The position numbers and the translations under genes were made by a program. A stretch of DNA of 47,931 bases. It comes from Azospirillaceae bacterium. Its GTDB lineage: Bacteria; Pseudomonadota; Alphaproteobacteria; Azospirillales; Azospirillaceae. Below are positions 9,786 through 47,016 of the stretch, one piece after another. The stretch covers positions 1-47,931 of the forward strand of contig DASQNC010000009.1 of the NCBI GenBank assembly GCA_035645145.1, read 5' to 3'. Under the pieces are notes generated by a model. The model saw only the letters and a program-made list of their open reading frames with translations. It was not told where the DNA came from and did no database searches. Position 1 is the first letter of the stretch; every line of letters begins with the position of its first letter.

Positions 9786-10667
9786 TCAGGGACGCCACCG
9801 CAACAGCACGGCCGAGGCATCGTCCGCGGGCTTGATCCGTGGAAACCGCCGGCAGTCGGCATCGGCGGCCTCAACGGCCCGCAATTCGGCGTACAACGCG
9901 TCCAGTCCCTTGTCCACGGCGGCCTGGACCAGGCCATCGGGATCGTAGAGGCCGTACGGGTCCACCAGACGGTAGAAACCGTCGGTCGCAAGCAGGACAT
10001 GCCCCCCGGCGCCGTCGGGATCGGCGTCCGCAAGCCGGATCCCGTCCAGGTTCAGATGGTCCGCCGCCGCGGGCTCGATGGAGAAGATCCAGTAACCGCC
10101 GGGCCTGTTCATGCGCCCCCGTGCGGAGCGCAGCCTGTCCATCAGGGCCTCGCGCCGGGCCTCGGGATCCGAAACGCCCTCGTCCTGCAATCTGCGGACC
10201 GCGGCGTTCAGCGCCACTTCGGCCTTGCTGACGCCCGCGGGGCCGAGCGGCCGCGCCGCCCCCCGGCCGGCCCGGACCAGCACCGAGCAATCCCCCAGAC
10301 CGGCATACGACAGGACACCGCCCTGCCACCGCACATAGGCGACGGCCGCCGAAGGCAGCCCGTAGGTCGGGACGTCGGGCTCGGCCACGGCCGCCCATTG
10401 CGCGGCGACGTCCGCGATGGCACCGGCCATCGTTCGGGGGAGATCCCCGCCCGGCGGCTGCATGGCCAGCGCACGGCCGAGCCGCCGGGCGTACCAGGCG
10501 GCATCGCTGCCATCGGCAGGAGCGGCCACATAGGTCCGCCCCGCCACGCCGGTGGCCCCATCCACCACCCAGGCGGCGCCGGTGCCGGCGTCCCCGCACC
10601 ACCCCACCGTGTCCTCGTTGCCGCCGGCCGCCGCCCCTTCGGTCAGGAGCGCCACAACCTCCATCAT
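9786..10667 (-). CDS. PP2C-like protein serine/threonine phosphatase
   Basis: 293 aa. Motifs of the PPM/PP2C fold are in order: NEDTVG (N17, D19), VVDGATGV (D36-G37, metal site), GLGDCSVLV, LLATDGFYRLVD, and a C-terminal ADDASAVLL, the DDxS/T metal-site motif. The protein has no kinase or receiver domain and no membrane span, so it is probably a cytoplasmic Mn2+/Mg2+-dependent phosphatase acting on Ser/Thr-phosphorylated proteins. The start is the first of two ATGs, with GGGGAG just upstream. It is divergent from the stress-type operon starting at 10773, sharing a 105-bp intergenic region. A link between the phosphatase and that operon's regulation is possible but unproven. Confidence 0.85.
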   Translation of the reverse strand: MMEVVALLTEGAAAGGNEDTVGWCGDAGTGAAWVVDGATGVAGRTYVAAPADGSDAAWYARRLGRALAMQPPGGDLPRTMAGAIADVAAQWAAVAEPDVPTYGLPSAAVAYVRWQGGVLSYAGLGDCSVLVRAGRGAARPLGPAGVSKAEVALNAAVRRLQDEGVSDPEARREALMDRLRSARGRMNRPGGYWIFSIEPAAADHLNLDGIRLADADPDGAGGHVLLATDGFYRLVDPYGLYDPDGLVQAAVDKGLDALYAELRAVEAADADCRRFPRIKPADDASAVLLRWRP

Positions 10668-10686
10668 GCATTACTCCCCGTCTGCG

Positions 10687-10711
10687 GGAACCCGGATGCG
10701 TTCAGCCTGTT
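10687..10711 (+). promoter_or_regulatory. EcfG-type (general stress response) promoter candidate
   Basis: GGAAC at 10687-10691, 16 nt, then TGTT at 10708-10711. This is close to the alphaproteobacterial EcfG consensus GGAAC-N16/17-CGTT, and it lies 62 bp upstream of the 10773 start. The one mismatch is in the first -10 base. The downstream genes are of a kind often under general stress control. Confidence 0.6.
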
Positions 10712-10772
10712 TGTCAACCGCCGTCGGCTGCGATCAAGCCGCGCGAGCACGGGAACGGCAAGGAGGGTTTTC

Positions 10773-12098
10773 ATGGCCACGCGCGACACGAGCAGCGAGA
10801 GCGCGAAGGGTGAACTGCGCGGAACCGCGGAGACTGCGGGCGAAACGGTGCGCAACACCGCCGACCAACTGATCGAACGGGGTCGGACGGAAGCGCGCAG
10901 CATCTTGGAGGAACAACAGCACAGGGCCGCCAGCGGCATCAGCTCCGTGGCCGAGGCTCTGCACGCCGTCGCGGACGAGTTCAAGGGCCGCAACATCGGC
11001 GTCGCGGCCCGCTACACCGATCAGGCCGCACAGCAGATCGACACCTTCGCCCGCCGCGTGCGCGAACGGAACCTCGACGACATCCTGTCCGACACGGAGG
11101 GCTTCGCCCGCCGCCAACCCGAAATGTTCGTCGGGGGCGCCTTCCTGCTCGGCATTCTGCTGGCCCGGGTGGCCAAGGCGTCCAGCGACCGCCGCCACCG
11201 CCGCGAGCGGCTGGAGCGCATGTCCAATTTCTCGGAGTCCGGCGACTACACCGACATTTCGGCGCGCACCGGTCCCGCCGGCTACGCGGGCGGCTATCCG
11301 GGCGGCCTGCCGGAGCGCGGCACGACGCGTTCGACCGGGGGCGGCCAAGGCCCGATGGGCCAAGGACCGGGAAGCCAGGGTTCGGGCAACCAGCGGACCA
11401 CCAGCTATGGGGCCGGTTCGAGCGGCGGCATCGACGACACATCCCGCGGCACGACGGGCGGCACCACAAGCGGGGGCTCGACCGGCCGGGGACCGGGCGC
11501 AAGCCAGGCCGGGGCCTACACCACCGGCGGCTCGGTGCCGAACCAAACCCATGGCGCCGGCACGACCCCGGGCCTGGGCGTCCAGGGGGCCACGACCGGC
11601 GGCTCCGGCACGACCGCTCCCACGGGCGGTTCGACCGGCGGCACCGGCAGCGAGCACGCAAGGCACATCGGCGGAGCGGCCGGCGGTGGATCCACCGGCG
11701 CCGAGCAGGCCAAGGGCGCCTCTTCGGAAGGGAACGAGCGGCTGGCCGGTTCCGGGACGATCACCGGCCTCGGCACGACCGGCGATGTGGGCAAATCCAC
11801 GGCCGGCATCGGCTCGTCCGGCGACACGGGCGGGTTGAAGGGCGGCACCACCGGCTCCGGCACGGGCACGGCCGGCCCCGCGGGCATGGCGACCAACACC
11901 GCCGCCGATACCGGCACCAACCAGCACCTGGGCCAGCCGGGGACGGCATCGGCCTCGCCGCTCGGCATCAGCGGCACGGGTGCGGTGACCGGCGCCAAGG
12001 GCGGCGCGGGTGCCGGCAAGCCCACCGCGTCGACGGACCAGGGCAAGAAGGAAACCACCGGCCCGGATAACGGCAAACCCACCGGTCGGAGGAACTGA
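10773..12098 (+). CDS. Gly/Thr/Ser-rich membrane protein, possible stress or nutrient-deprivation protein
   Basis: 441 aa with a strong AAGGAGG ribosome-binding site. The N-terminal ~115 residues are amphipathic and helical, with RNTADQLIERGRTEARSILE-like segments recalling phasin/YqjD-type stress proteins. One membrane span follows (about 118-133), then an Arg-rich cytoplasmic-side patch (RRHRRERLERM). The last ~270 residues are low complexity, almost entirely Gly, Thr, Ser, Ala and Pro, with short TGG/GSTG-type repeats and probably disordered. Proteins of this design upstream of a DUF1469 and a DUF3618 gene are commonly labelled nutrient-deprivation-induced in rhizobia; that is family knowledge, not proof. 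It is translationally coupled to the next gene (TGATG). Confidence 0.75.
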   Translation: MATRDTSSESAKGELRGTAETAGETVRNTADQLIERGRTEARSILEEQQHRAASGISSVAEALHAVADEFKGRNIGVAARYTDQAAQQIDTFARRVRERNLDDILSDTEGFARRQPEMFVGGAFLLGILLARVAKASSDRRHRRERLERMSNFSESGDYTDISARTGPAGYAGGYPGGLPERGTTRSTGGGQGPMGQGPGSQGSGNQRTTSYGAGSSGGIDDTSRGTTGGTTSGGSTGRGPGASQAGAYTTGGSVPNQTHGAGTTPGLGVQGATTGGSGTTAPTGGSTGGTGSEHARHIGGAAGGGSTGAEQAKGASSEGNERLAGSGTITGLGTTGDVGKSTAGIGSSGDTGGLKGGTTGSGTGTAGPAGMATNTAADTGTNQHLGQPGTASASPLGISGTGAVTGAKGGAGAGKPTASTDQGKKETTGPDNGKPTGRRN

Positions 12099-29649: not shown

Positions 29650-30243
29650 ATGCGTGCCTTTTCGGGTTCGGTGGCATCACGGGCGGCCCTGTCGGCCGTT
29701 CTGCTCGCTGCGGCCTCCATGCCAGCGGCACAGCCGGCGTCGGCCGGACCGGGCCTTCTCAGCTTCGGTGTCGGGCAATTCGATCACGATTATATCGATA
29801 CCGGCAGTGTGAGCGGCTTCTTCGATGCCGGCGACCGGGCTGGAACGGCCAAGGCGGCGGAATTCCGCCTGGAATACCGGTTCGGCACGCCGCTGTGGTC
29901 GTACAGCGACTGGTTCGAGCTGCGGCCGATGGCCGGGCTTTCCGCCACCAGCGACGGCATGCTCTACGGCATGGGTGGCCTGGCGTTCGACTTCACGCTC
30001 GGACCCGTCGTCTTCACCCCCAGCTTCGGCGCCGGCCTGTGGAGCCGCGGCGGCGGCAAGGATCTGGGCCACCCGCTCGAATTCCGGACCATGTTCGAAA
30101 TCGGGTACCGGTTCGAAAACCAGGCGCGCCTGACCGTCGGCTTCAGCCACATGTCGAACGCGGACATCAGCGACGAGAACCCCGGCGCCAATTCGCTGCT
30201 GCTGTACGTCCACGTACCGGTGAACGCCCTGCTGGGCGACTAA
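29650..30243 (+). CDS. PagL-like outer-membrane lipid A deacylase homologue
   Basis: 197 aa with a signal peptide (cleavage near residue 32) and an outer-membrane beta-barrel of alternating strands. It resembles the acyloxyacyl hydrolase/PagL family, which removes the 3-O-acyl chain from lipid A. The motif GFSHMSNADISDENPGANS supplies His167 and Ser169, the counterparts of PagL His126 and Ser128 (P. aeruginosa numbering). The third catalytic residue, Glu140, aligns 12 residues after Ser169 at Asn181, so the triad is incomplete. Fold and location are well supported; catalytic activity is doubtful. GAGGAAG lies just upstream of the ATG. Confidence 0.8.
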   Translation: MRAFSGSVASRAALSAVLLAAASMPAAQPASAGPGLLSFGVGQFDHDYIDTGSVSGFFDAGDRAGTAKAAEFRLEYRFGTPLWSYSDWFELRPMAGLSATSDGMLYGMGGLAFDFTLGPVVFTPSFGAGLWSRGGGKDLGHPLEFRTMFEIGYRFENQARLTVGFSHMSNADISDENPGANSLLLYVHVPVNALLGD

Positions 30244-30618
30244 GGGCCTACGGCGCGTAGGACAGCAGGGCGGCCAGGGCGGACGCCAACACCATGCACT
30301 CGACCCGGCCGGCGGTCCTCGGAGTGGCCGCCGCGCGGGCCCCGTCCCGGAACGGCCGCCGACCCGGATCCGCCCGGCCCGGCCATGCGGGCGTGCCGCC
30401 CGCACCCCGGGCCTGATGGCCGTTCTTCGCGCATTCCATCGCGTGGGGTGGATCGTGTGTCCATGCCGGCACCCGGCTCAATGGCGCGGACGGCGTGTCC
30501 GGGCGCGCCAACCCGGGCCGACGTGCGCATTGACCCCCTGCCGCGCCTGCCCCACCATCCCGACGGGAGCCCCGCCTGGACACCCGCCCGTCCCGATAGC
30601 CCCCAAGGCACTGGCACG
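30244..30618. other. intergenic region upstream of the GH31 gene
   Basis: 375 bp without a supported gene. Immediately after the PagL-like stop is a short hairpin (6-bp arms CCTACG/CGTAGG at 30247-30261). The reading frame of the downstream gene is open from about 30385, but the 78 extra codons are Pro/Arg/Ala-rich with no signal peptide. I see no clear promoter or operator, and only weak AAGG about 14 nt upstream of the ATG at 30619. Confidence 0.5.
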
Positions 30619-32694
30619 ATGACGCTCGATCCGAACCGGCTCGTCCCGATCACCCGCGCGGCTTTCGCCCGCGCCTTGCCCCAGGGCGCCATCCTCGACA
30701 CCGACCGCGGCCCGCTGGAGGCGACGGCCTATGCGCCGGGCGTGTTCCGGATACGCCTTGGGCTGGAGAGATTCGACTACGGGTTCCTGGCGGAGGAGCC
30801 GGCGGCACCGGACTGCCAGGTGGAGCGATCCGGTCCGGCGGGTGTCCGCATATCCACCCACGGCGCGGCATTGGCGATCGAGGGTGCGCCTTTGCGGATC
30901 TCGGTGGAGCGGGTGAACGGGACGCCGCTGCCCGGCGGCTTGACCATCGTCGCGGACATCACAGGACACGGCTGGGCAGCGGTCTTCGACCAGCCGCCCG
31001 GTGAACCGGTCTACGGCCCCGGCCTGGACGGCGCCGGCCCGGGCAACGGAGGCCCCCCCTTTGCATGGAGCCCGCGCGGCTGGGGCGTTCTGGCGCACAC
31101 GGCGGGCGCCGTGACGACGCAGGCCGGCGGGCGGGCGTTCACCCTCCACGTCCAGGACGCCACGCTCGACCTGTTCCTGTTCGTCGCCGACGACGGGCCC
31201 GGGCTTCTGGACCGGTACACATGGCTGACGGGCCGGCCACCCCAAGTGCCGGACTGGAGCCTGGGCGTCTGGCTGGCCTGCGGCGACAGCGGGTCGGCCG
31301 AGGAGGTGGTCCGGACGGCGGCGGAGATGCGCAAGCGCCGCATCCCCTTCGACACGTTGGTCCTCAAGGGCGAGGGCTGGATCCGGGCGGACGGGCCCGA
31401 GGGCTTCCGTTGGGACGCCGACCGCATCCCCGATCCGACCGCCTTCCACGGATTTATCAAGGCCTTGGGGATAAAGGTCGTGGCGGCACACACACCGTGC
31501 CTCCCCGTCGACAGCCCGATGTTTGCGGGTCATGCCGGCAATGGCTGGCTGCTGCGCGACACGCAATCGGGCGAGCCCGCCGTGACCGGGGCCGGCGCGC
31601 GGGCGTGCGGCATCGTCGATTTCACCAACGCCGACGCCTACGCGGATTGGCGCGACCGGTACCGGCCCCTGTTCGCCCAGGGTGTGGACGCCATCCAGGC
31701 CGAGCCTCCCGCGATCCCGGCGGATGCCGTTTCGGCCAGCGGGGCGACGGGCCCGCACCTCGCCAGCGTCTATCCGCTGCTGCACAGCGCCGGCGTGTTC
31801 GAGGCGGCCACCCGCTACGGACACGGGCTGCCCATCATCGCGGGACACGCCGGGTGGACGGCCGGCCAGCGATTCCCGACTCCGACGGGTCTCCCGGCCG
31901 AGGGCACCTGGAACGGTTTCGCCGCCTCGATCCGGGAGGCGCTCGATCGCGGGCGGCGCGGCACCCCCTGGTGGCCGGCGCAGATCGGCGGGACCGGCAT
32001 CCCCCGCCCCGACACGGAACTTTACATCCGCTGGGCACAGCAGGGGATCTTCGCCTCGCACACGCGGATCGGCGGCGCGGCCGGCCTGGAACCCTGGTCC
32101 TTCGGCACCGAGGCCGAGAACATCGTCCGGGTGTGGCTGGAGTTCCGGTACCGTCTGATCCCCTACATCCAGGGTGTGCTGGAGCAGGCGCAACAAACCG
32201 GCCTGCCGGTGATGCGCGCAATGGCGCTGGCCTTCCCCGACCAACCCGCCGCCTGGGCCTTCGACACCCAGTACATGTTCGGACCTGCGCTGCTGGTGGC
32301 CCCGGTGGTGCAGCCGGGCGGCCGGGTGCAGGTGCACCTGCCCGAAGGGGGCTGGTACGACATCTGGAGCGGCGAACGCCTGGATGGTGGCCGCACCATC
32401 ACGGTCGACGCGACCGGCGCCCAAATCCCGCTCTACGGCCGCGAAGGGGAAAGCCTGGCCCTGGGGCCGATGATCCAGCACACCGGCGAGATCGATCCCT
32501 CGGGCCGGCTCGACTCCCTTTGGGTCTTCGGCAAGCCCCGCCACCCCCCGCTGGTGGGCCGCATGCGCCCGACCCTGGTGCGCCAGCCCAATGGCCCGAC
32601 GCTGCTGGTGGGCATGCCCACGACCATGACCGTGCGCGAATTCGGCGAGTTGAAACCCGAGATCCTGGAGGATGCGATCCTGTTCCACCCCTAG
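30619..32694 (+). CDS. GH31 glycosidase homologue (YicI-like) lacking catalytic residues
   Basis: 691 aa. Over its whole length it follows the GH31 alpha-xylosidase/glucosidase layout: an N-terminal galactose-mutarotase-like domain (about 1-200), a TIM barrel (about 205-560) and C-terminal beta-sandwich domains with LPEGGWYDIWSGERLDGG. The key sites do not match, however. The nucleophile segment, KTDFGE in YicI, is here QAEPPA (Gln360-Ala365), with Glu362 where the Asp should be. The acid/base segment WSHDIGG is here WPAQIGG (452-458), with Gln455 for Asp. The FPVHWGGD segment is also altered (near residue 419). It is probably a binding or regulatory pseudoenzyme. The ATG at 30619 is chosen because MTLDPNRLVPIT begins the domain. 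Confidence 0.8.
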   Translation: MTLDPNRLVPITRAAFARALPQGAILDTDRGPLEATAYAPGVFRIRLGLERFDYGFLAEEPAAPDCQVERSGPAGVRISTHGAALAIEGAPLRISVERVNGTPLPGGLTIVADITGHGWAAVFDQPPGEPVYGPGLDGAGPGNGGPPFAWSPRGWGVLAHTAGAVTTQAGGRAFTLHVQDATLDLFLFVADDGPGLLDRYTWLTGRPPQVPDWSLGVWLACGDSGSAEEVVRTAAEMRKRRIPFDTLVLKGEGWIRADGPEGFRWDADRIPDPTAFHGFIKALGIKVVAAHTPCLPVDSPMFAGHAGNGWLLRDTQSGEPAVTGAGARACGIVDFTNADAYADWRDRYRPLFAQGVDAIQAEPPAIPADAVSASGATGPHLASVYPLLHSAGVFEAATRYGHGLPIIAGHAGWTAGQRFPTPTGLPAEGTWNGFAASIREALDRGRRGTPWWPAQIGGTGIPRPDTELYIRWAQQGIFASHTRIGGAAGLEPWSFGTEAENIVRVWLEFRYRLIPYIQGVLEQAQQTGLPVMRAMALAFPDQPAAWAFDTQYMFGPALLVAPVVQPGGRVQVHLPEGGWYDIWSGERLDGGRTITVDATGAQIPLYGREGESLALGPMIQHTGEIDPSGRLDSLWVFGKPRHPPLVGRMRPTLVRQPNGPTLLVGMPTTMTVREFGELKPEILEDAILFHP

Positions 32695-32722: not shown

Positions 32723-33688
32723 TCAGGCCGCCACAGGGCTCTCCTTGATCCGCCGGGCTTGGCGCCGCTTGCCCAGGATGCCGTGGTGCGGCCCGAACAG
32801 GGCGGCCGCCGCCAGCAGGACGCCCCCCACCACCGCGATCATGCCGGCCGCGCTCAGGGAATTGTCGTGGCCCAGCGCCAGCGGCCCGAACGCGGCCAGC
32901 CCATAGCCCAGGACGGCGCACACCACACCGATCCCGGCGCTCATCCAGACCTGGGTCGCCAGCCGGTCGGTCAGGAGCCGCGCCGTGGCCGGCGGGCAGA
33001 TCAGCATCGCGATCACCAGGATCGACCCCACCGCCTCGAACGACGCGATGGCGGCAATGGCGGTCAGCACCACCAGCCCGTAATGGAACAGCCCGGCCGG
33101 AATCCCCAGCGTGGTCGCGAGTGCGGGATCGAACGCGGTGATCCGCAACTCCTTCCAGAACAGCACGATCACAAGGGCGATCAGCGCCGTCACGGCGGCG
33201 AGCTGCACCACCTCGCGCGGGAAATCGGCCCACGTCGACGCGTGCAGCAGCGACGCCGGGGTGGTCGCCGCCACCCACACGATGTCCTCGAGTTGGCCGA
33301 ACAGGACGCACTCGGCGTCCAGGTCCACGGCACGGGCACCGGACTGCTCGATAAGGACCACCCCGAGGGCGAACATCACGGTGAACACCACCCCCATGGC
33401 CGCACCGGCTTCCAACCGGCCAATCCGCCGCACCGCCTCAATGAGCACGCCGGCAATGACCGCGGCGGCCAACGAGCCGGCGAACATCGGCACGATCGTG
33501 CGCGTGCCGGACACCAGGAACCCGCCGACGATGCCCGGCAGCACGGCGTGGCTGACGGCGTCGCCCAAAAGGCTTTGCCGCCGCAGGACCAGGTAGTTGC
33601 CGACCAGGGCATTGGCCACGCAGGCGAACAGGGCGGCCAGCAGCGCCGGCAGGTCGATCTGCAACAGATCCTGAAGGGTCAGCGCCAT
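32723..33688 (-). CDS. metal ABC transporter permease (TroD type)
   Basis: 321 aa, with 8-9 membrane spans and the ABC-3 family pattern (NYLVLRRQSLLGDAVSHAVLPGIV, then LVIAMLICPPATARLLTDRL). It forms the second membrane subunit of the importer whose other genes lie upstream on the same strand. Its start overlaps the other permease gene by 10 bp. Unlike its partner it has no extra C-terminal regulatory domain, ending in a short basic tail (KRRQARRIKES). Confidence 0.92.
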   Translation of the reverse strand: MALTLQDLLQIDLPALLAALFACVANALVGNYLVLRRQSLLGDAVSHAVLPGIVGGFLVSGTRTIVPMFAGSLAAAVIAGVLIEAVRRIGRLEAGAAMGVVFTVMFALGVVLIEQSGARAVDLDAECVLFGQLEDIVWVAATTPASLLHASTWADFPREVVQLAAVTALIALVIVLFWKELRITAFDPALATTLGIPAGLFHYGLVVLTAIAAIASFEAVGSILVIAMLICPPATARLLTDRLATQVWMSAGIGVVCAVLGYGLAAFGPLALGHDNSLSAAGMIAVVGGVLLAAAALFGPHHGILGKRRQARRIKESPVAA

Positions 33689-34896
33689 CCCGCCCTCGCC
33701 TCCAACTCGACAACCAGATCGCGCGGCAGCGCCCTGTCCACCGGCTCGAAGCCCCAGCCGGCGGCCGGCAGGAGCGCCGGGTAGTCGGCGACGAAACGAT
33801 CCCAGAGCCGTGCGTCACGCTCCGCCGCCAGGGCCGCGACCCGCCCTGCCGTCGTCAACCGCCCATCCGTGTCGACCAATCCGCGCAGCCGCAACCGCCA
33901 ACGCACCAGGCCCGGGGAAACCCCCTTGGTGAAACCGGACCCGGCCTCCAATGCCCGGCGCAGCGCCAGCCGCTCGGCGTAGACGAGCCGGCGCAGCGCA
34001 TGCCGGGCCGCCAAAGCCAGCACGCCCCGGGCCGGTGCGAACAGGAAGCTGAACAGGAACAGCCCGCCCGCGGCCAACACGATCAGGGCGCCGGCCGGAG
34101 CGCGGGGAAACAGGGCCGACAGCGTCGCGCCCGTCCAGCCGCTGACCGCGCCGATCAGGGCGGAGGCGGCCACCATGTGAGCCAGCCGGTCGGTCCAGAA
34201 CCGGGCGGCCACCGCCGGCACGATCAGCAACGCGATGACCAGCACCAGTCCGACCGTCTGAAGGCCGATCACCGTGACGAACGTGGCCAGCCCCATCAGC
34301 GCCGCATCCACCCGGCCGACCGGCCAGCCCTGCGCCGCCGCGAAGGCCGGATCGAAGCAGACCAGGCGCAATTCCTTGAACAGCAGCGTCACCAGCACCG
34401 CCGCGACGAGCGCCAGGGCCGCGATGGCCAGGGCCTCGCCCTGCCGCATGGCGGCGGTCTGGCCGAGGATGAAATGGGTCAGCCCGGCCTGCCCGGCGAC
34501 GTTGAGGGTCTGCACATAGCTGACCAGCACCACACCCAGGCCGAAGAACACGCTGAGCACAGCCGCCGTGGCCGCATCCTCGGGCAGCCGGGTGCGGGAC
34601 GCGAGTCCGTGGATGAGGAAGGCGGCCAGGACGGCGCTGGCCACCGCCCCCGCCAGCAGCAGCGGCAGCGACCGTTCCGGAAACCCCAGGGCCACCCCGG
34701 CCAGGAAGGCGGCTGCGATGCCGGGCAACGTGGCATGCGCCAAGGCATCGCTGACCATGGCGCGGCGGCGCAGCAGCAGGAACGTGCCGACCGTCCCGCC
34801 GGCCAGGCCGAGGCACGCCGTGCCGAAGACGACGACGGCACTGTTGTAGCCGGCCCGGAAGGTCAGGACGGCGATGGCCTGTTCCAGAAGGCTCAT
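33679..34896 (-). CDS. metal ABC transporter permease with fused DtxR/MntR-like C-terminal domain (TroC type)
   Basis: 405 aa. The first ~295 residues are an ABC-3 permease with 8-9 spans (LRRRAMVSDALAHATLPGIA, then LVIALLIVPAVAARFWTDRL). The last ~110 residues are soluble and match the DtxR/MntR winged helix plus the start of its dimerization domain: VSPGLVRWRLRLRGLV, then LTTAGRVAALAAERDARLWD, then WGFEPVDRALPRDLVVELE. A similar permease-DtxR fusion, YtgCR, occurs in Chlamydia, where the regulator half is released and acts as an iron-dependent repressor (known family precedent). Here the release and the metal are unknown. The start overlaps the ATPase stop (ATGA). Confidence 0.88.
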   Translation of the reverse strand: MSLLEQAIAVLTFRAGYNSAVVVFGTACLGLAGGTVGTFLLLRRRAMVSDALAHATLPGIAAAFLAGVALGFPERSLPLLLAGAVASAVLAAFLIHGLASRTRLPEDAATAAVLSVFFGLGVVLVSYVQTLNVAGQAGLTHFILGQTAAMRQGEALAIAALALVAAVLVTLLFKELRLVCFDPAFAAAQGWPVGRVDAALMGLATFVTVIGLQTVGLVLVIALLIVPAVAARFWTDRLAHMVAASALIGAVSGWTGATLSALFPRAPAGALIVLAAGGLFLFSFLFAPARGVLALAARHALRRLVYAERLALRRALEAGSGFTKGVSPGLVRWRLRLRGLVDTDGRLTTAGRVAALAAERDARLWDRFVADYPALLPAAGWGFEPVDRALPRDLVVELEARAGWR

Positions 34897-35675
34897 GGGT
34901 CGCCCACCTCGCCAAGGACCATCCGGCCGCCGTAGGCCATGCGGAGGGTCTCGGCCGTCATCACGTCGGCAACGGGACCCGCGGCCACGACACGGGTGCT
35001 CAGCACCAGCGCATGGTCGAACACCTCGCGCACGGTGCCCAGATCGTGGTGCACGCAGACGACGGTTCGGCCGGCCGCCTCCATCTCGCGCAGGACGTCC
35101 AGGATCGCCCGCTCGGTGGCCGCATCCACCCCGGCGAAGGGTTCGTCCATGAAGTAGACGCGGGCATCCTGGGCCAGGGCGCGGGCCAGGAACACGCGCT
35201 GTTGCTGGCCGCCCGAAAGCTGGCCGATCTGGCGGTCGGCGAAGTCGGCCATGCCGACGCGGGCCAACGCCTCGCGCGCGGCTTCCCGGTGGGTGCGGCC
35301 GACCGGGCGGCACCAGCCGATGCGCCCGTAACGCCCCATGGCGACCACCTCCAGCGCGGAGACGGGGAAATCCCAATCCACGCTTTCCCGCTGGGGGACA
35401 TAGCCGATCCGTCCGTGGCTGCGGCGCACCGGCCGGCCCAGCACCCTGACCGTGCCCGAGACGACGGGAACCAGGCCGAGGCAGGCCTTGATGAAGGTGG
35501 ATTTCCCGGCCCCGTTCGGACCGACCACGGCGATCAAACCGCGGGTCGGCGCTTCGAAGCTCACGTCCCACAGCACCGGCCGCTGGCCGTAGGCGACCGT
35601 CAGGCCGCGCACCGACAAGGGGGATGCCACGTCCGCATCCGCCCCCTGCTTCAGCCAATCGGGCACGAGCTGCAT
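34893..35675 (-). CDS. metal ABC transporter ATPase (TroB type)
   Basis: 260 aa. Walker A is GPNGAGKST, the Q loop includes YVPQRESVDWDFP, the signature is LSGGQQQRVFLARAL, and Walker B YFMDEPFAGVD; switch His in VCVHHDLGTV. Residues DWDFP after the Q-loop are typical of Mn/Zn/Fe ATPases of the troB/mntB/znuC group. It powers the permease pair downstream. It begins 3 bp after the binding-protein stop and overlaps the permease start by 4 bp. Confidence 0.94.
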   Translation of the reverse strand: MQLVPDWLKQGADADVASPLSVRGLTVAYGQRPVLWDVSFEAPTRGLIAVVGPNGAGKSTFIKACLGLVPVVSGTVRVLGRPVRRSHGRIGYVPQRESVDWDFPVSALEVVAMGRYGRIGWCRPVGRTHREAAREALARVGMADFADRQIGQLSGGQQQRVFLARALAQDARVYFMDEPFAGVDAATERAILDVLREMEAAGRTVVCVHHDLGTVREVFDHALVLSTRVVAAGPVADVMTAETLRMAYGGRMVLGEVGDP

Positions 35676-35678
35676 GGC

Positions 35679-36671
35679 TCAGCGCACCTGGGCCAGCCGG
35701 CCCTGGAAGCCGCCCGCCGGAGCCGGGCCGCCCAGCGCGCGGGCGATGGTGGTCACGTTGTGGTCGATCATGCCGACATAGGTGCCCTCGTAGGTGCCGG
35801 GCGGGCCCAACGCGTCGGAATAGAGCGACCCGCCCACCTCGACCTTGTGCCCCCGGGCCGCGGCCCCTTCGATCAGGGCGCGGACGTTGCGGTCGGTGAC
35901 GCTGGTCTCCACGAACACCGCACCGATCCCGCGGGTGGCCAGAAGATCGACCAGGGCCTCGATCTCCTTCAATCCGGCCTCGGACTCGGTGGACAGGCCC
36001 TGGATACCCACCACCTCCAGCCCATAGGCGCGGCCCAGGTAGTTGAAGGCGTCATGCGCGGTCACCAGCACCCGCGAAGCCTCGGGGATGTCGGCCAGCA
36101 CGCGCCGGGCATAGCCGTCCAGTCCCGTCAGCACGTCGACATAGCGGGCCGCGTTGACGGCATAGGCGGATGCCCCGTCGGGATCGAACGCGGACAGGCG
36201 GTCGCGCACCACCTCGACCGCCAGGATCCAATTGCGGACATCCATCCAGGCATGGGGATCGAACTGCTCCTTCGCCCCCTCGGGCTCCAGCAGGCCTTCC
36301 TCCGGAATCAGTTCGGTGACGGCATGGACCGGCTTGCCCGAGGACGCGACGCGAACCAGCGCGTCCGTCATTTTCCCTTCCAGGAGCAGGCCGTTGTAGA
36401 AGACGATATCCGCACGCATCAATTGCGCGGTGTCGCTGCGGGTCAGGCGATAGGTGTGCGGGTCCACCCCCTCGCCCAGCAGCCCGACGACCTGCGCCCG
36501 GTCCCCCGCCACATTGCGGACCAGATCGGCCACGTGACCCGTGGTGGCCACGACGGTGTATTTGGGTGCCGCCCACACCGGACCGGCCGCCACCACACCC
36601 GCCACGAAGGTCGCCAGAAGGGCGACACGCCGGGTAATCCCACCGACGGCCCGCCCCGTCACCCGCCCCAT
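35679..36671 (-). CDS. periplasmic metal-binding protein (TroA/MntA/ZnuA family)
   Basis: 330 aa. Tat/Sec-like signal (GITRRVALLATFVAG, cleavage near AWA at about 35). Metal ligands fit TroA: His72 (GVDPHTYR), His140 (FDPHAWMD), His206 (VTAHDAFNYL) and Asp303 (GMIDHN). There is no long His-rich loop, so Mn or Fe is at least as likely as Zn. I chose the ATG at 36671, preceded by AAGGAGG 8 nt upstream; a TTG at 36692 would add seven residues. First gene of a four-gene import operon (binding protein, ATPase, two permeases). A palindrome lies directly upstream of its ribosome-binding site. Confidence 0.92.
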   Translation of the reverse strand: MGRVTGRAVGGITRRVALLATFVAGVVAAGPVWAAPKYTVVATTGHVADLVRNVAGDRAQVVGLLGEGVDPHTYRLTRSDTAQLMRADIVFYNGLLLEGKMTDALVRVASSGKPVHAVTELIPEEGLLEPEGAKEQFDPHAWMDVRNWILAVEVVRDRLSAFDPDGASAYAVNAARYVDVLTGLDGYARRVLADIPEASRVLVTAHDAFNYLGRAYGLEVVGIQGLSTESEAGLKEIEALVDLLATRGIGAVFVETSVTDRNVRALIEGAAARGHKVEVGGSLYSDALGPPGTYEGTYVGMIDHNVTTIARALGGPAPAGGFQGRLAQVR

Positions 36672-36685
36672 CGCCGCAGCCTCCT

Positions 36686-36699
36686 TGAACAAGTGTTCA
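36686..36699 (-). promoter_or_regulatory. palindromic operator candidate of the metal-importer operon
   Basis: A perfect inverted repeat, TGAACA-AG-TGTTCA on the + strand, abutting the AAGGAGG ribosome-binding site of the binding-protein gene. A further TGTTCA half-site lies at 36726-36731 inside an A/T-rich stretch (about 36700-36780) that should hold the promoter. It is a good candidate for a metal-dependent repressor site, either a separate regulator or the DtxR-like domain in the same operon. No -35/-10 pair was clear. Confidence 0.6.
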
Positions 36700-45023: not shown

Positions 45024-45164
45024 ATGAAGAAGATTTTGGCAGCCGTCGTAGCCTTGATCCTACTGCTCCTGGTCGGAGGTGCGGTCCTGCTCGGCACGTT
45101 GAACATCCCGCCCCCCTCCGGGGCGGTGGAGCGGGTCATTCCCAATGACCGGTTCCAGCGTTAA
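45024..45164 (+). CDS. small single-pass membrane protein
   Basis: 46 aa: MKKILAAVVALILLLLVGG, one span (about 4-26), then LLGTLNIPPPSGAVERVIPNDRFQR as a short soluble tail. The basic start (MKK) and hydrophobic core fit a single-pass membrane or signal-anchored peptide. The frame continues upstream of the ATG at 45024 but without membrane or signal character. It overlaps the next gene's start by 20 bp, so it is probably co-translated. I do not recognise it. Confidence 0.6.
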   Translation: MKKILAAVVALILLLLVGGAVLLGTLNIPPPSGAVERVIPNDRFQR

Positions 45165-47016
45165 CCGTCTGGCGGCCGCGCTGATCGCGGCCATCACCCT
45201 TCCGGCGGCGGCGGCCGCCCAATCCGGCCAGCCGTTGCGGCTCGGCCCGCCGCCGCCACAGCGCGCGGCGCCCGCTCCCATGGGCCAAGCGCCCGTGGAC
45301 CCGGCACCTGTGGATCAGGTCCCCACGGACCCGGCCAATCCGCCTCCAGCCCCGGCCCAGGCATCGCCCACCCTTCTCGGCGTTCCACCCGGGACCGCGG
45401 GAACGTCCGGTTCCGACGCCCCGCCCCCCGGCGCCGACATCCGAAGCTCCGGCATCCAGATCGTGCCGCTCGAAGACCCTGGCGAGGCTTGGACCGGCCT
45501 TCTCGACCGTCTGAACGGCGGCTTCGGCCGCAGGATGTGGGCGGATACGCCGCGGCCGACGGTCGACCGGTTGCTGGCGGCACTCCCGACCGGCATGGCG
45601 TCGCCCGCGATGCGGGATCTGGCCGTGCGCCTTCTGCTGAGCCAGGCGGCAGCCCCACCCGGGGATGAGGACATCGACGCCATCGACGCCAAGCGGGTGG
45701 CAAAGCTGGTCGCCCTGGGCGAGCGCCGGACGGTGGCCGAGCTGACCGCGCGCATGCCCGATGCGCTGGACAATGCCGAGATCGCCCGCCTTGCCGCCGA
45801 AAGCCGGCTGCTGGCCGGCGATGCCGAGGCCGCGTGCTCCGACGTGCGCGAGCCGGCCTCCCGGTTCGGCGGCCCGGATTGGATCCGGATCACTGCGGTC
45901 TGCCATCTGGTCGCCCTGGACACGGCCGCCGCCCTGGCCGAACTGGGTGCGCTGCGGGACCTCGGCGTGCGTGACGACGCCTTCTTCGCGCTGGCGGACC
46001 ACCTGATGGGCCGCGGCGGGACCGGGGCGCCTCCGCTCGCCAACCCGTCGCCGCTGCATCTCGCCATGGCGAACATGGCCCAGCTTCCACTGCCCGCCGA
46101 CGTGCTGACCGCCCGGGATCCGATGCGGCTGAGCGCGGTCGCGGACAACGCCCATACCGACCCGGCGATCCGGCTGGTCGCGGTGGAACGGCTGGCTGCG
46201 GCCGGCGCCACCAACGCCGAGACCCTGGCCGCCGCCTACGAGGGGGTGCGGTTCTCCCTGCCGGAGCTGAGCGCCGGCCCGCAGGCCACGCTGCGCATGG
46301 ACCGGCCCCGGGCCCGGGCCTTCCTGTACCAGGCGGCCCTGCGGGAAACCTCGCCGACCGCCCGCGCCGACTTGCTGCGGCGGTTCATCGAGGCGATGGA
46401 GCCCGGCATGGCCACCGGCCCGGCCGGCGAATTGGCCGCACGCCGGCTGGCCGAGGGACTGGCGCCCGACCGGACGTACGCCGCCCTGGCGCCGCAACTG
46501 ACCACCGTCCTGTACGCCACGGGCGAGCGCGCCCGGCCCGTGCCCTGGCACGAGCTGGCGTTGCGGGCGGCGGACGCCGATCCCGGCCAAGCCCTGACGG
46601 CCGCGCGCCTCTGGCCGCTGGCGGCCGTCTCGGGCGTCGTGCCGCCGGACGGTGCGAACGGCGCCCGGCGCTGGCGGGATGCGGAGACGCGGGCGGACGG
46701 CCAAGGGGCGTCGGGCCGCACCGCCGATGTGGCCGCCCTTCTGTCGGCGGCCGGCGTGGTGTTGCCGGACGCGGCCGGACTGCCGACATCCGGTGGTGAA
46801 GCCGCAGCGGCCGATCTGGGCCGTCTGGAAGCCGCCGCCCGGGCCGGGCGTTTGGGCGAAACCGTGCTACTGTCCTTGGCCGCACTCGGTGACGCCGGCC
46901 CGCGTGGCGCCCCCGCGGCGGTTTCGGCGGCCGTGGTGCGGGCCCTGCGCGCCGTCGGCCTGGAAGACGAAGCCCGCGCCATCGCGCGCGAGGCGATGCT
47001 GGCACGGCTGGGCTGA
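45145..47016 (+). CDS. large secreted or periplasmic helical-repeat protein
   Basis: 623 aa. A signal peptide (cleavage after AAA, about residue 25) is followed by a Pro/Ala/Gln-rich linker (about 30-100) and then an alpha-helical body rich in Ala, Leu, Arg and Glu with TPR/HEAT-like periodicity and no recognised domain. The location should be periplasmic or cell-surface. It is the middle gene of a membrane peptide-secreted protein-xerD unit on the plus strand; 10 bp separate it from xerD. The function is unknown. Confidence 0.7.
   Translation: MTGSSVNRLAAALIAAITLPAAAAAQSGQPLRLGPPPPQRAAPAPMGQAPVDPAPVDQVPTDPANPPPAPAQASPTLLGVPPGTAGTSGSDAPPPGADIRSSGIQIVPLEDPGEAWTGLLDRLNGGFGRRMWADTPRPTVDRLLAALPTGMASPAMRDLAVRLLLSQAAAPPGDEDIDAIDAKRVAKLVALGERRTVAELTARMPDALDNAEIARLAAESRLLAGDAEAACSDVREPASRFGGPDWIRITAVCHLVALDTAAALAELGALRDLGVRDDAFFALADHLMGRGGTGAPPLANPSPLHLAMANMAQLPLPADVLTARDPMRLSAVADNAHTDPAIRLVAVERLAAAGATNAETLAAAYEGVRFSLPELSAGPQATLRMDRPRARAFLYQAALRETSPTARADLLRRFIEAMEPGMATGPAGELAARRLAEGLAPDRTYAALAPQLTTVLYATGERARPVPWHELALRAADADPGQALTAARLWPLAAVSGVVPPDGANGARRWRDAETRADGQGASGRTADVAALLSAAGVVLPDAAGLPTSGGEAAAADLGRLEAAARAGRLGETVLLSLAALGDAGPRGAPAAVSAAVVRALRAVGLEDEARAIAREAMLARLG

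Follow-up and report, generated by a model that had tools for sequence, protein, structure and literature searches.

A GH31 protein without its active site in an Azospirillaceae genome, probably retained as a pseudoenzyme

The stretch of DNA analysed here, called the window, is the whole of contig DASQNC010000009.1 (C9, 47,931 bases) of the Azospirillaceae bacterium assembly GCA_035645145.1. The genome comes to 3.89 Mb, is split into 74 contigs and has a contamination estimated at 2.99%. One gene in the window encodes a protein of 691 amino acids that is, by descent, a member of glycoside hydrolase family 31 (GH31); this follows from its sequence and from its predicted fold. Both catalytic aspartates are gone from it, and so are the other active-site residues listed for the family. 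The protein is probably a pseudoenzyme that has been retained, with a role for its surface or its outer domains rather than for catalysis. A preliminary description of the window, made from the letters alone, had already pointed this way. It placed the open reading frame (ORF) at 30619-32694 on the plus strand and the altered motifs QAEPPA and WPAQIGG at residues 360-365 and 452-458, all of which is correct. Some of its arguments are revised below.

Its assignment of the protein to GH31 is borne out by profile searches. The Pfam barrel profile PF01055 matches residues 207-517 (E 4e-43, 148.4 bits, cut-off 23.5), and the GH31 C-terminal profile PF21365 matches residues 528-611 (E 1e-25, 90 bits, cut-off 24.4). 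The sequences of YicI structures match residues 146-620 at E 1.6e-62. The GH31 N-domain profile PF13802 has no match at E 1 in the window protein, while the sister protein introduced below does match it. The protein is not a YicI-type alpha-xylosidase by the NCBIfam equivalog NF007940, where it scores 264.8 bits against a cut-off of 606. No second GH31 gene was found in the window's genome, and no signal peptide was seen by eye. An alternative in-frame ATG lies upstream at 30385; the start at 30619 is the one that corresponds to the start of the sister protein.

In PMC5745559, the residues given for the YicI-type active site are D, W, K, D (the nucleophile), F, R, W, Y and H. In the numbering of MalH the paper gives the catalytic residues as D419 and D483, the latter three residues after W480. 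Here YicI numbering is used, transferred by way of the YicI-like proteins L158 and L159. The 'W445' and 'Y516' of PMC5745559 are taken as YicI W345 and F515, which is our own reading. All ten active-site positions obtained from this list are lost in the window protein. The nucleophile D416 has become E362, with the neighbouring F417 deleted, and the acid/base D482 of HWGGD has become P426, so that neither catalytic position still carries an aspartate. The other changes in the pocket are D306 to K250, W345 to A290, K414 to Q360, R466 to H410, W479 to T423, F515 to T459 and H540 to G485. D511 is lost too, having become Q455.

The preliminary description was thus right that both catalytic aspartates are replaced, and the losses go further than it described. 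It had located the acid/base in WSHDIGG, which is mistaken: the aspartate there is D511, a pocket residue, and the acid/base is D482, in agreement with the residues given in PMC5745559. This residue sits in the FPVHWGGD loop, which the same description correctly listed as altered.

Six further YicI positions tell a mixed story. Changes are found at F277, F308 and W315; W508 survives as W452; and at positions 307 and 507 the window protein has the same residues as its sister (Gly and Trp). Whole loops have also disappeared. Compared to its relatives, the window protein lacks GEKWG..SRNEDALGVN, loops of the N-domain, and RYGWD, a loop of the barrel; the N-domain deletions remove 13 amino acids at residue 114, 5 at 135, 16 at 141 and 5 at 170. 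In the columns that are invariant among nine intact orthologs, the window protein differs at 70 out of 157, where leave-one-out controls range from 4/161 to 15/172. The pocket has lost more than the barrel around it, with 0 out of 10 positions kept versus 42 of the 91 barrel invariants (p 0.0013). The observed loss of the active site is beyond chance.

From the known mechanism of the family, one would not expect the GH31 pair to carry out retaining hydrolysis now that the catalytic positions have a Glu (without its neighbouring Phe) and a Pro and the sugar-holding residues are gone. The residues support the view that normal hydrolysis has been lost.

An alignment with close homologues, which the preliminary description had proposed as a check, shows the catalytic residues kept in the relatives and replaced in the window protein. 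The nucleophile Asp is present in all 39 other GH31 rows, and the WGGD Asp (the acid/base) in all 38 rows that span it, as is D511. These 39 rows, counted after removal of one identical row, contain L024 (a fragment of the sister gene) and L007 (one half of the broken G019 gene). No other degenerate GH31 relative occurs among the 39 rows whose residues were read. In the rows that are not of YicI type, the positions of D306, W345 and K414 vary, while those of the nucleophile, R466, W479, D482, D511 and H540 are constant. As a side observation, the GH31s of the sister's clade have an Arg at YicI W315; this holds for 11 of the 13 proteins compared, and the other two are outgroups.

The searches behind this alignment covered 82 genomes of the family (the order consists of the same 82), 385 genomes sampled from the class and 398 from the phylum. 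Matches were found in 7 of these at E 1e-55 or better, in 8 at 1e-130 and in 3 at 1e-70 respectively, each count including the window's own genome. On plasmids, 34 records matched, all at less than 60% identity, and the active-site comparison excludes them. Among viral contigs, residues were read for L154, L158 and L159, while L160 was aligned only. L158 and L159 are IMG/VR contigs which, although filed as viral, carry YicI-like alpha-xylosidase genes; perhaps, and this is a guess, they are host DNA beside a prophage.

The sister protein is the ortholog on contig CANGXM010000054.1 (G001:C54, here L031) of a Rhodospirillales metagenome-assembled genome, which makes the comparison within the genus one of two genomes. 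It is 737 amino acids long, has the same start, a related tail and a complete active site, and is 51% identical to the window protein over aligned residues (47% with gaps). The two group together with a bootstrap of 99 on the whole alignment. Across 79 syntenic pairs, orthologues of the two genomes have a median identity of 72.8%, and 7 of the pairs fall below 51%. This baseline comes from sampled parts of the genomes (0.77 and 1.08 Mb), and some of the low pairs, none of which were removed, look like non-orthologous transporters. A smaller initial sample of 26 pairs had a median of 43% and was mostly non-orthologous.

Structure prediction and comparison with GH31 structures, also proposed earlier, give a model that is compatible with the GH31 fold of N-terminal sandwich, barrel and C-terminal sandwich. 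This model was built from 6 sequences and has a mean predicted local distance difference test (pLDDT) score of 70.6 and a predicted template modelling (pTM) score of 0.72. Its weak spots are residues 1-20, 135-145, 409-424 and most of 629-691. Against YicI it reaches a template modelling (TM) score of 0.77 and a Z of 37.6 over 623 residues, and YicI and other GH31 structures top the structure-match lists. A model from 2 sequences has a pLDDT of 35.

The three domains have evolved at very different rates: relative to the sister, the barrel went 6-10 times faster and the N-domain 2.5 times, with the C-sandwich at the normal rate. On a fixed tree, the branch lengths for the window protein and its sister are 1.33 versus 0.13 in the barrel, 0.84 versus 0.32 in the N-domain and 0.31 versus 0.29 in the C-sandwich. 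Distance-based rate ratios, with ranges from 1000 bootstraps, come to 6.1 (3.9-12.4), 2.5 (1.6-4.8) and 1.1 (0.6-1.8) in the same order. The C-sandwich is not accelerated, which means that no uniform loss of constraint along the gene is seen. A neutral pseudogene would accelerate everywhere, and the uneven rates therefore count against one. The invariant columns are divided in a similar manner: the N-domain has changes at 21 of its 43 (15 of them deletions), the barrel at 49 of 91, and the part after residue 490 at 0 of 23. Put differently, 23/23 family invariants are kept after residue 490 and 64/134 before it (Fisher p 3e-7). The C-terminal tail of 78 residues is 60% identical to that of the sister and roughly 30% to that of L033.

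The reading frame is open from the first to the last residue, despite 13 indels compared to the sister; in places the alignment may have divided a single event. Of the 13, 7 are deletions in which family-invariant columns are lost. The sister protein can be aligned over its full length (residues 1-737) without a change of frame, and there is no frameshift, premature stop or truncation across the 691 codons. Compensated frameshifts, or an alternative frame, were considered as the source of the odd barrel segments and rejected, as the other frames match the sister protein only at E 0.16 or worse. In the preliminary description, the intact frame sufficed to dismiss a decaying pseudogene. The frame is indeed open, but at 70% GC this is weak evidence of selection: the antisense strand has a 736-amino-acid ORF through the same stretch. 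In a neutral simulation of the barrel, the probability of meeting no stop is 0.036, 0.009 and 0.002 at 0.2, 0.4 and 0.8 substitutions per site.

Under a two-ratio codon model, omega = 1 can be rejected for the window branch in every domain; twice the log-likelihood difference is 14 for the N-domain, 50 for the barrel and 15 for the C-sandwich. Third-position GC is 0.87-0.92 along the gene, which matches neighbouring genes. The sequence indicates that constraint on the barrel is clearly relaxed, and its core columns remain hydrophobic more often than its polar columns turn hydrophobic. Among changed core columns 25 of 43 are still hydrophobic, versus 28 of 81 changed polar columns that turned hydrophobic (p 0.014); with Ala left out these numbers are 16/33 and 10/100 (p 8e-6). 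The region 361-490 is poorer in aromatic and charged residues than in the nine orthologs. Taken together, the domain rates, the frame and the codon test look like signs of purifying selection and support retention, with the proviso that synonymous sites are saturated and one sister was compared.

A number of observations weigh against retention. The saturation of synonymous sites makes the omega values unreliable, and giving the window branch its own omega fits no better in any domain. Identity of the barrel to the sister is nearly flat, at 0.48, 0.56, 0.31 and 0.38 from invariant to most variable columns. The second half of the barrel consists for 0.49 of Gly, Ala, Pro and Arg, compared to 0.34-0.40 in nine orthologs. 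Both features would be expected of a sequence under relaxed constraint. If the trees are left free, those of the N-domain and the barrel unite the window protein with its sister (84 and 73), but that of the C-sandwich separates them (with a support of 34 for another place). Near the gene, a scan limited to simple consensus patterns turned up nothing resembling a promoter or terminator. Finally, the resemblance of the structure model to YicI is partly built in, because there are YicI-like relatives in its alignment.

The surroundings of the gene differ between the two genomes of the genus. The sister GH31 gene is preceded by genes for an aldolase (DeoC/LacD), an isomerase, a sugar-binding protein and two permeases, the last permease being some 0.6 kb away. 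The isomerase has a weak Fucose_iso_C match, slightly below the cut-off. Neither the aldolase nor the isomerase was found in the window's genome, by searches that found both in three other genomes (one of them the query's own). No close relative of the binding protein was found there either, the best match being 22% identical; the permeases were not searched genome-wide. The genes that lie downstream of GH31 in the sister genome are, in the window's genome, on another contig which has no GH31. With aldolase, isomerase and close binding-protein relative missing and those downstream genes elsewhere, the GH31 gene is an orphan. The contig itself is genuine for the genus, because three of its genes are syntenic with the other genome at 68-76% protein identity.

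The sister's operon (L031, 10-8214) is itself an uncharacterised sugar operon, and its neighbourhood was compared with ten other intact loci over stretches of 12-19 kb. An aldolase and isomerase also adjoin GH31 in two other genomes of the class (G413 and G326, at 54-61% identity). The binding protein and permeases lie near the GH31 of G116 (58-69%); near that of G310 there is a single permease (82%), right on the border of the stretch. In G136 there are only distant permeases: two sugar-ABC-like (ATP-binding cassette) pairs, 29-33% identical to those of L031, upstream of an intact GH31 (L045 1592-8767, G136:C18). None of the operon genes occur within the compared stretches of G002, G023, G033, G208 and G211, nor near the broken G019 copy. 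The transporters associated with the GH31 family may thus differ from host to host. The G019 copy (L053 8791-10786, G019:C4), which comes from a different genus within the family, is spread over two frames that overlap, apparently through a frameshift, or else a sequencing error. Elsewhere in the family, loss of the enzyme may therefore have taken an ordinary route.

The main rival to retention is that the enzyme became useless once the operon was lost, and that its gene is a slowly decaying relic under little or no selection, its frame open by luck. This is rather unlikely in our estimate, with a chance that is still substantial. The aldolase, the isomerase and a close binding-protein relative are indeed missing, the active site is gone, the barrel drifts toward GC-rich codons, long open frames come cheap at this GC content, as the antisense ORF attests, and in G019 a related copy appears to have broken. 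Neutral decay of the whole gene lost first place on account of the C-sandwich, which shows no acceleration. That domain evolves at the rate of the sister's and keeps all of its invariants, the frame has survived the 13 indels where simulated barrels seldom stay free of stops, and omega = 1 is rejected in every domain, albeit with saturated synonymous sites. For the same reasons of rate, invariants and open frame, a retained pseudoenzyme fits better than a neutral pseudogene. The preliminary description's claim that selection kept the protein for something other than hydrolysis is therefore supported, by this evidence and not by its own, which was weak. Its picture of changed loops within a well-kept fold holds for the active-site loops; the barrel is much diverged, and enriched in Gly, Ala, Pro and Arg in its second half.

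It is improbable that the protein has acquired a changed reaction, in which Glu362 and new polar residues (Lys250, Glu252, His291, His410 and Gln455) would form a new active site. The nucleophile position does still hold a carboxylate, several polar or charged residues have appeared at old pocket positions, and the barrel is the most accelerated domain, as it would be under adaptive change. Set against this, the acid/base is now a Pro, the residue after the nucleophile is deleted, conserved loops are gone, and the composition of region 361-490, rich in Gly, Ala, Pro and Arg and low in aromatic and charged residues, is unlike what a new active site would need. The new residues occur in none of the 39 rows read. 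An assembly error, contamination or chimera is more improbable still. The fragmented assembly and its estimated contamination would allow for one, but the synteny of three genes on the same contig, the spread of changes over many codons with the frame kept, a third-position GC like that of neighbouring genes, and a tail far closer to the sister than to L033 all speak against it.

Under retention as a pseudoenzyme, we infer the following course of events. An ancestral alpha-glycosidase would have served an operon for sugar import and breakdown, with an ABC transporter, a LacD/DeoC-type aldolase and an isomerase, and the ortholog in the sister species still appears to do so. In the window's lineage these partners are no longer there, which leaves the hydrolase by itself among unrelated genes. 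With no reaction left to preserve, the active site would have been erased, together with the conserved N-domain loops. Cells would have gone on making the protein and retaining it in folded form; constraint on its C-sandwich would match that in the sister, and constraint on its barrel would be loose. Its function would most likely run via interactions of its surface or domains, for example as an oligomer scaffold, or in binding a partner or ligand by the outer domains. A role as regulatory partner of an active GH31 paralogue was considered as well and rejected, as the genome has no other GH31 that could be found. It is possible, if on the doubtful side, that after the loss of the sugar pathway a bacterial GH31 scaffold turned into a dedicated non-catalytic protein (a ligand sensor, lectin or assembly scaffold), with functional outer domains and a barrel freed from constraint. 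If true, this would be a bacterial conversion from enzyme to non-enzyme with the intact enzyme preserved in a sister species.

The case is of use in several ways. The second genome of the genus still has an enzyme of the active type together with its operon, and the loss can be followed for each domain separately. An erased barrel beside an untouched C-terminal sandwich gives a testable prediction of where a retained function would lie. Annotation pipelines could miscall the gene as an alpha-xylosidase or alpha-glucosidase. And should the gene be a dying relic after all, it would be a useful example of a misleading open frame at 70% GC.

Table 1 Features of the GH31 gene and its neighbours, in positions of the window
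Feature	Position	Strand	Remarks
Putative GH31 pseudoenzyme gene	30619..32694	+	691 aa; from ORF list, translation and alignment to sister protein
N-terminal domain	30619..31236	+	residues 1-206; boundary set by Pfam barrel start
GH31 (beta/alpha)8 barrel region	31237..32088	+	residues 207-490; strongly accelerated
C-terminal sandwich	32089..32457	+	residues 491-613; rate equal to sister's
C-terminal tail	32458..32691	+	residues 614-691
K250	31366..31368	+	YicI D306
A290	31486..31488	+	YicI W345
Q360-A361-E362	31696..31704	+	YicI K414-T415-D416 (D416 nucleophile); F417 deleted
H410	31846..31848	+	YicI R466
T423-G-L-P426	31885..31896	+	YicI W479-G-G-D482 (D482 acid/base)
Q455-I-G-G-T459	31981..31995	+	YicI D511-I-G-G-F515
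G485	32071..32073	+	YicI H540
PagL-type lipid A 3-O-deacylase	29650..30243	+	upstream neighbour; 375 bp gap to GH31 gene
Metal (Zn/Mn-type) ABC transporter genes	32723..36692	-	convergent neighbour; named by reading translations alone; ATPase part syntenic with G001

Elsewhere in the window some frames stand out. In the metal transporter, the frame of the second permease (33679-35658, minus strand) seems, by eye, to extend C-terminally past its membrane part. Two ORFs of 699 and 623 amino acids (9999-12098 and 45145-47016) have no Pfam match at E 1e-4. Their second-position GC is high (0.61-0.64), and they may be spurious frames or novel proteins.

Among known systems, the sister protein is alike in its identity of 51%, its start and its related 78-residue tail. 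It differs in having a complete active site and an operon of aldolase, isomerase and sugar-ABC genes. YicI of E. coli and Klebsiella (an alpha-xylosidase; PDB 1we5, 1xsi, 8t7z and 9q5c) shares the order of domains and the predicted fold, with Z scores of 35-38. The differences are the ten active-site positions and D511, lost in the window protein, and a score that falls far short of the NF007940 cut-off.

No bacterial GH31 pseudoenzyme was found in the literature searched, from which most subscription papers were absent. Insects do have comparable proteins. In PMC8063059, a sandfly lysosomal alpha-glucosidase of GH31 has both Asp replaced by Gln, two sandfly NET37 proteins (also GH31) have a Pro in place of the proton donor, and mosquito lysosomal GH31 enzymes without catalytic residues are reported. 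These resemble the window protein in that the catalytic pair is replaced in part or whole. They are eukaryotic and of other GH31 types, and the comparison made here is of the catalytic pair. Further afield are the GH28 polygalacturonase pseudoenzymes of beetles, one of which, according to PMC8213348, interacts with a plant protein. There too a glycoside hydrolase is kept without catalysis; it belongs to another family, and the beetle has active paralogues, whereas the window's genome yielded no second GH31. Insects thus already supply GH31 proteins that lack catalytic residues, and the window protein joins a known kind, notable for the clean pair that it forms with its sister.

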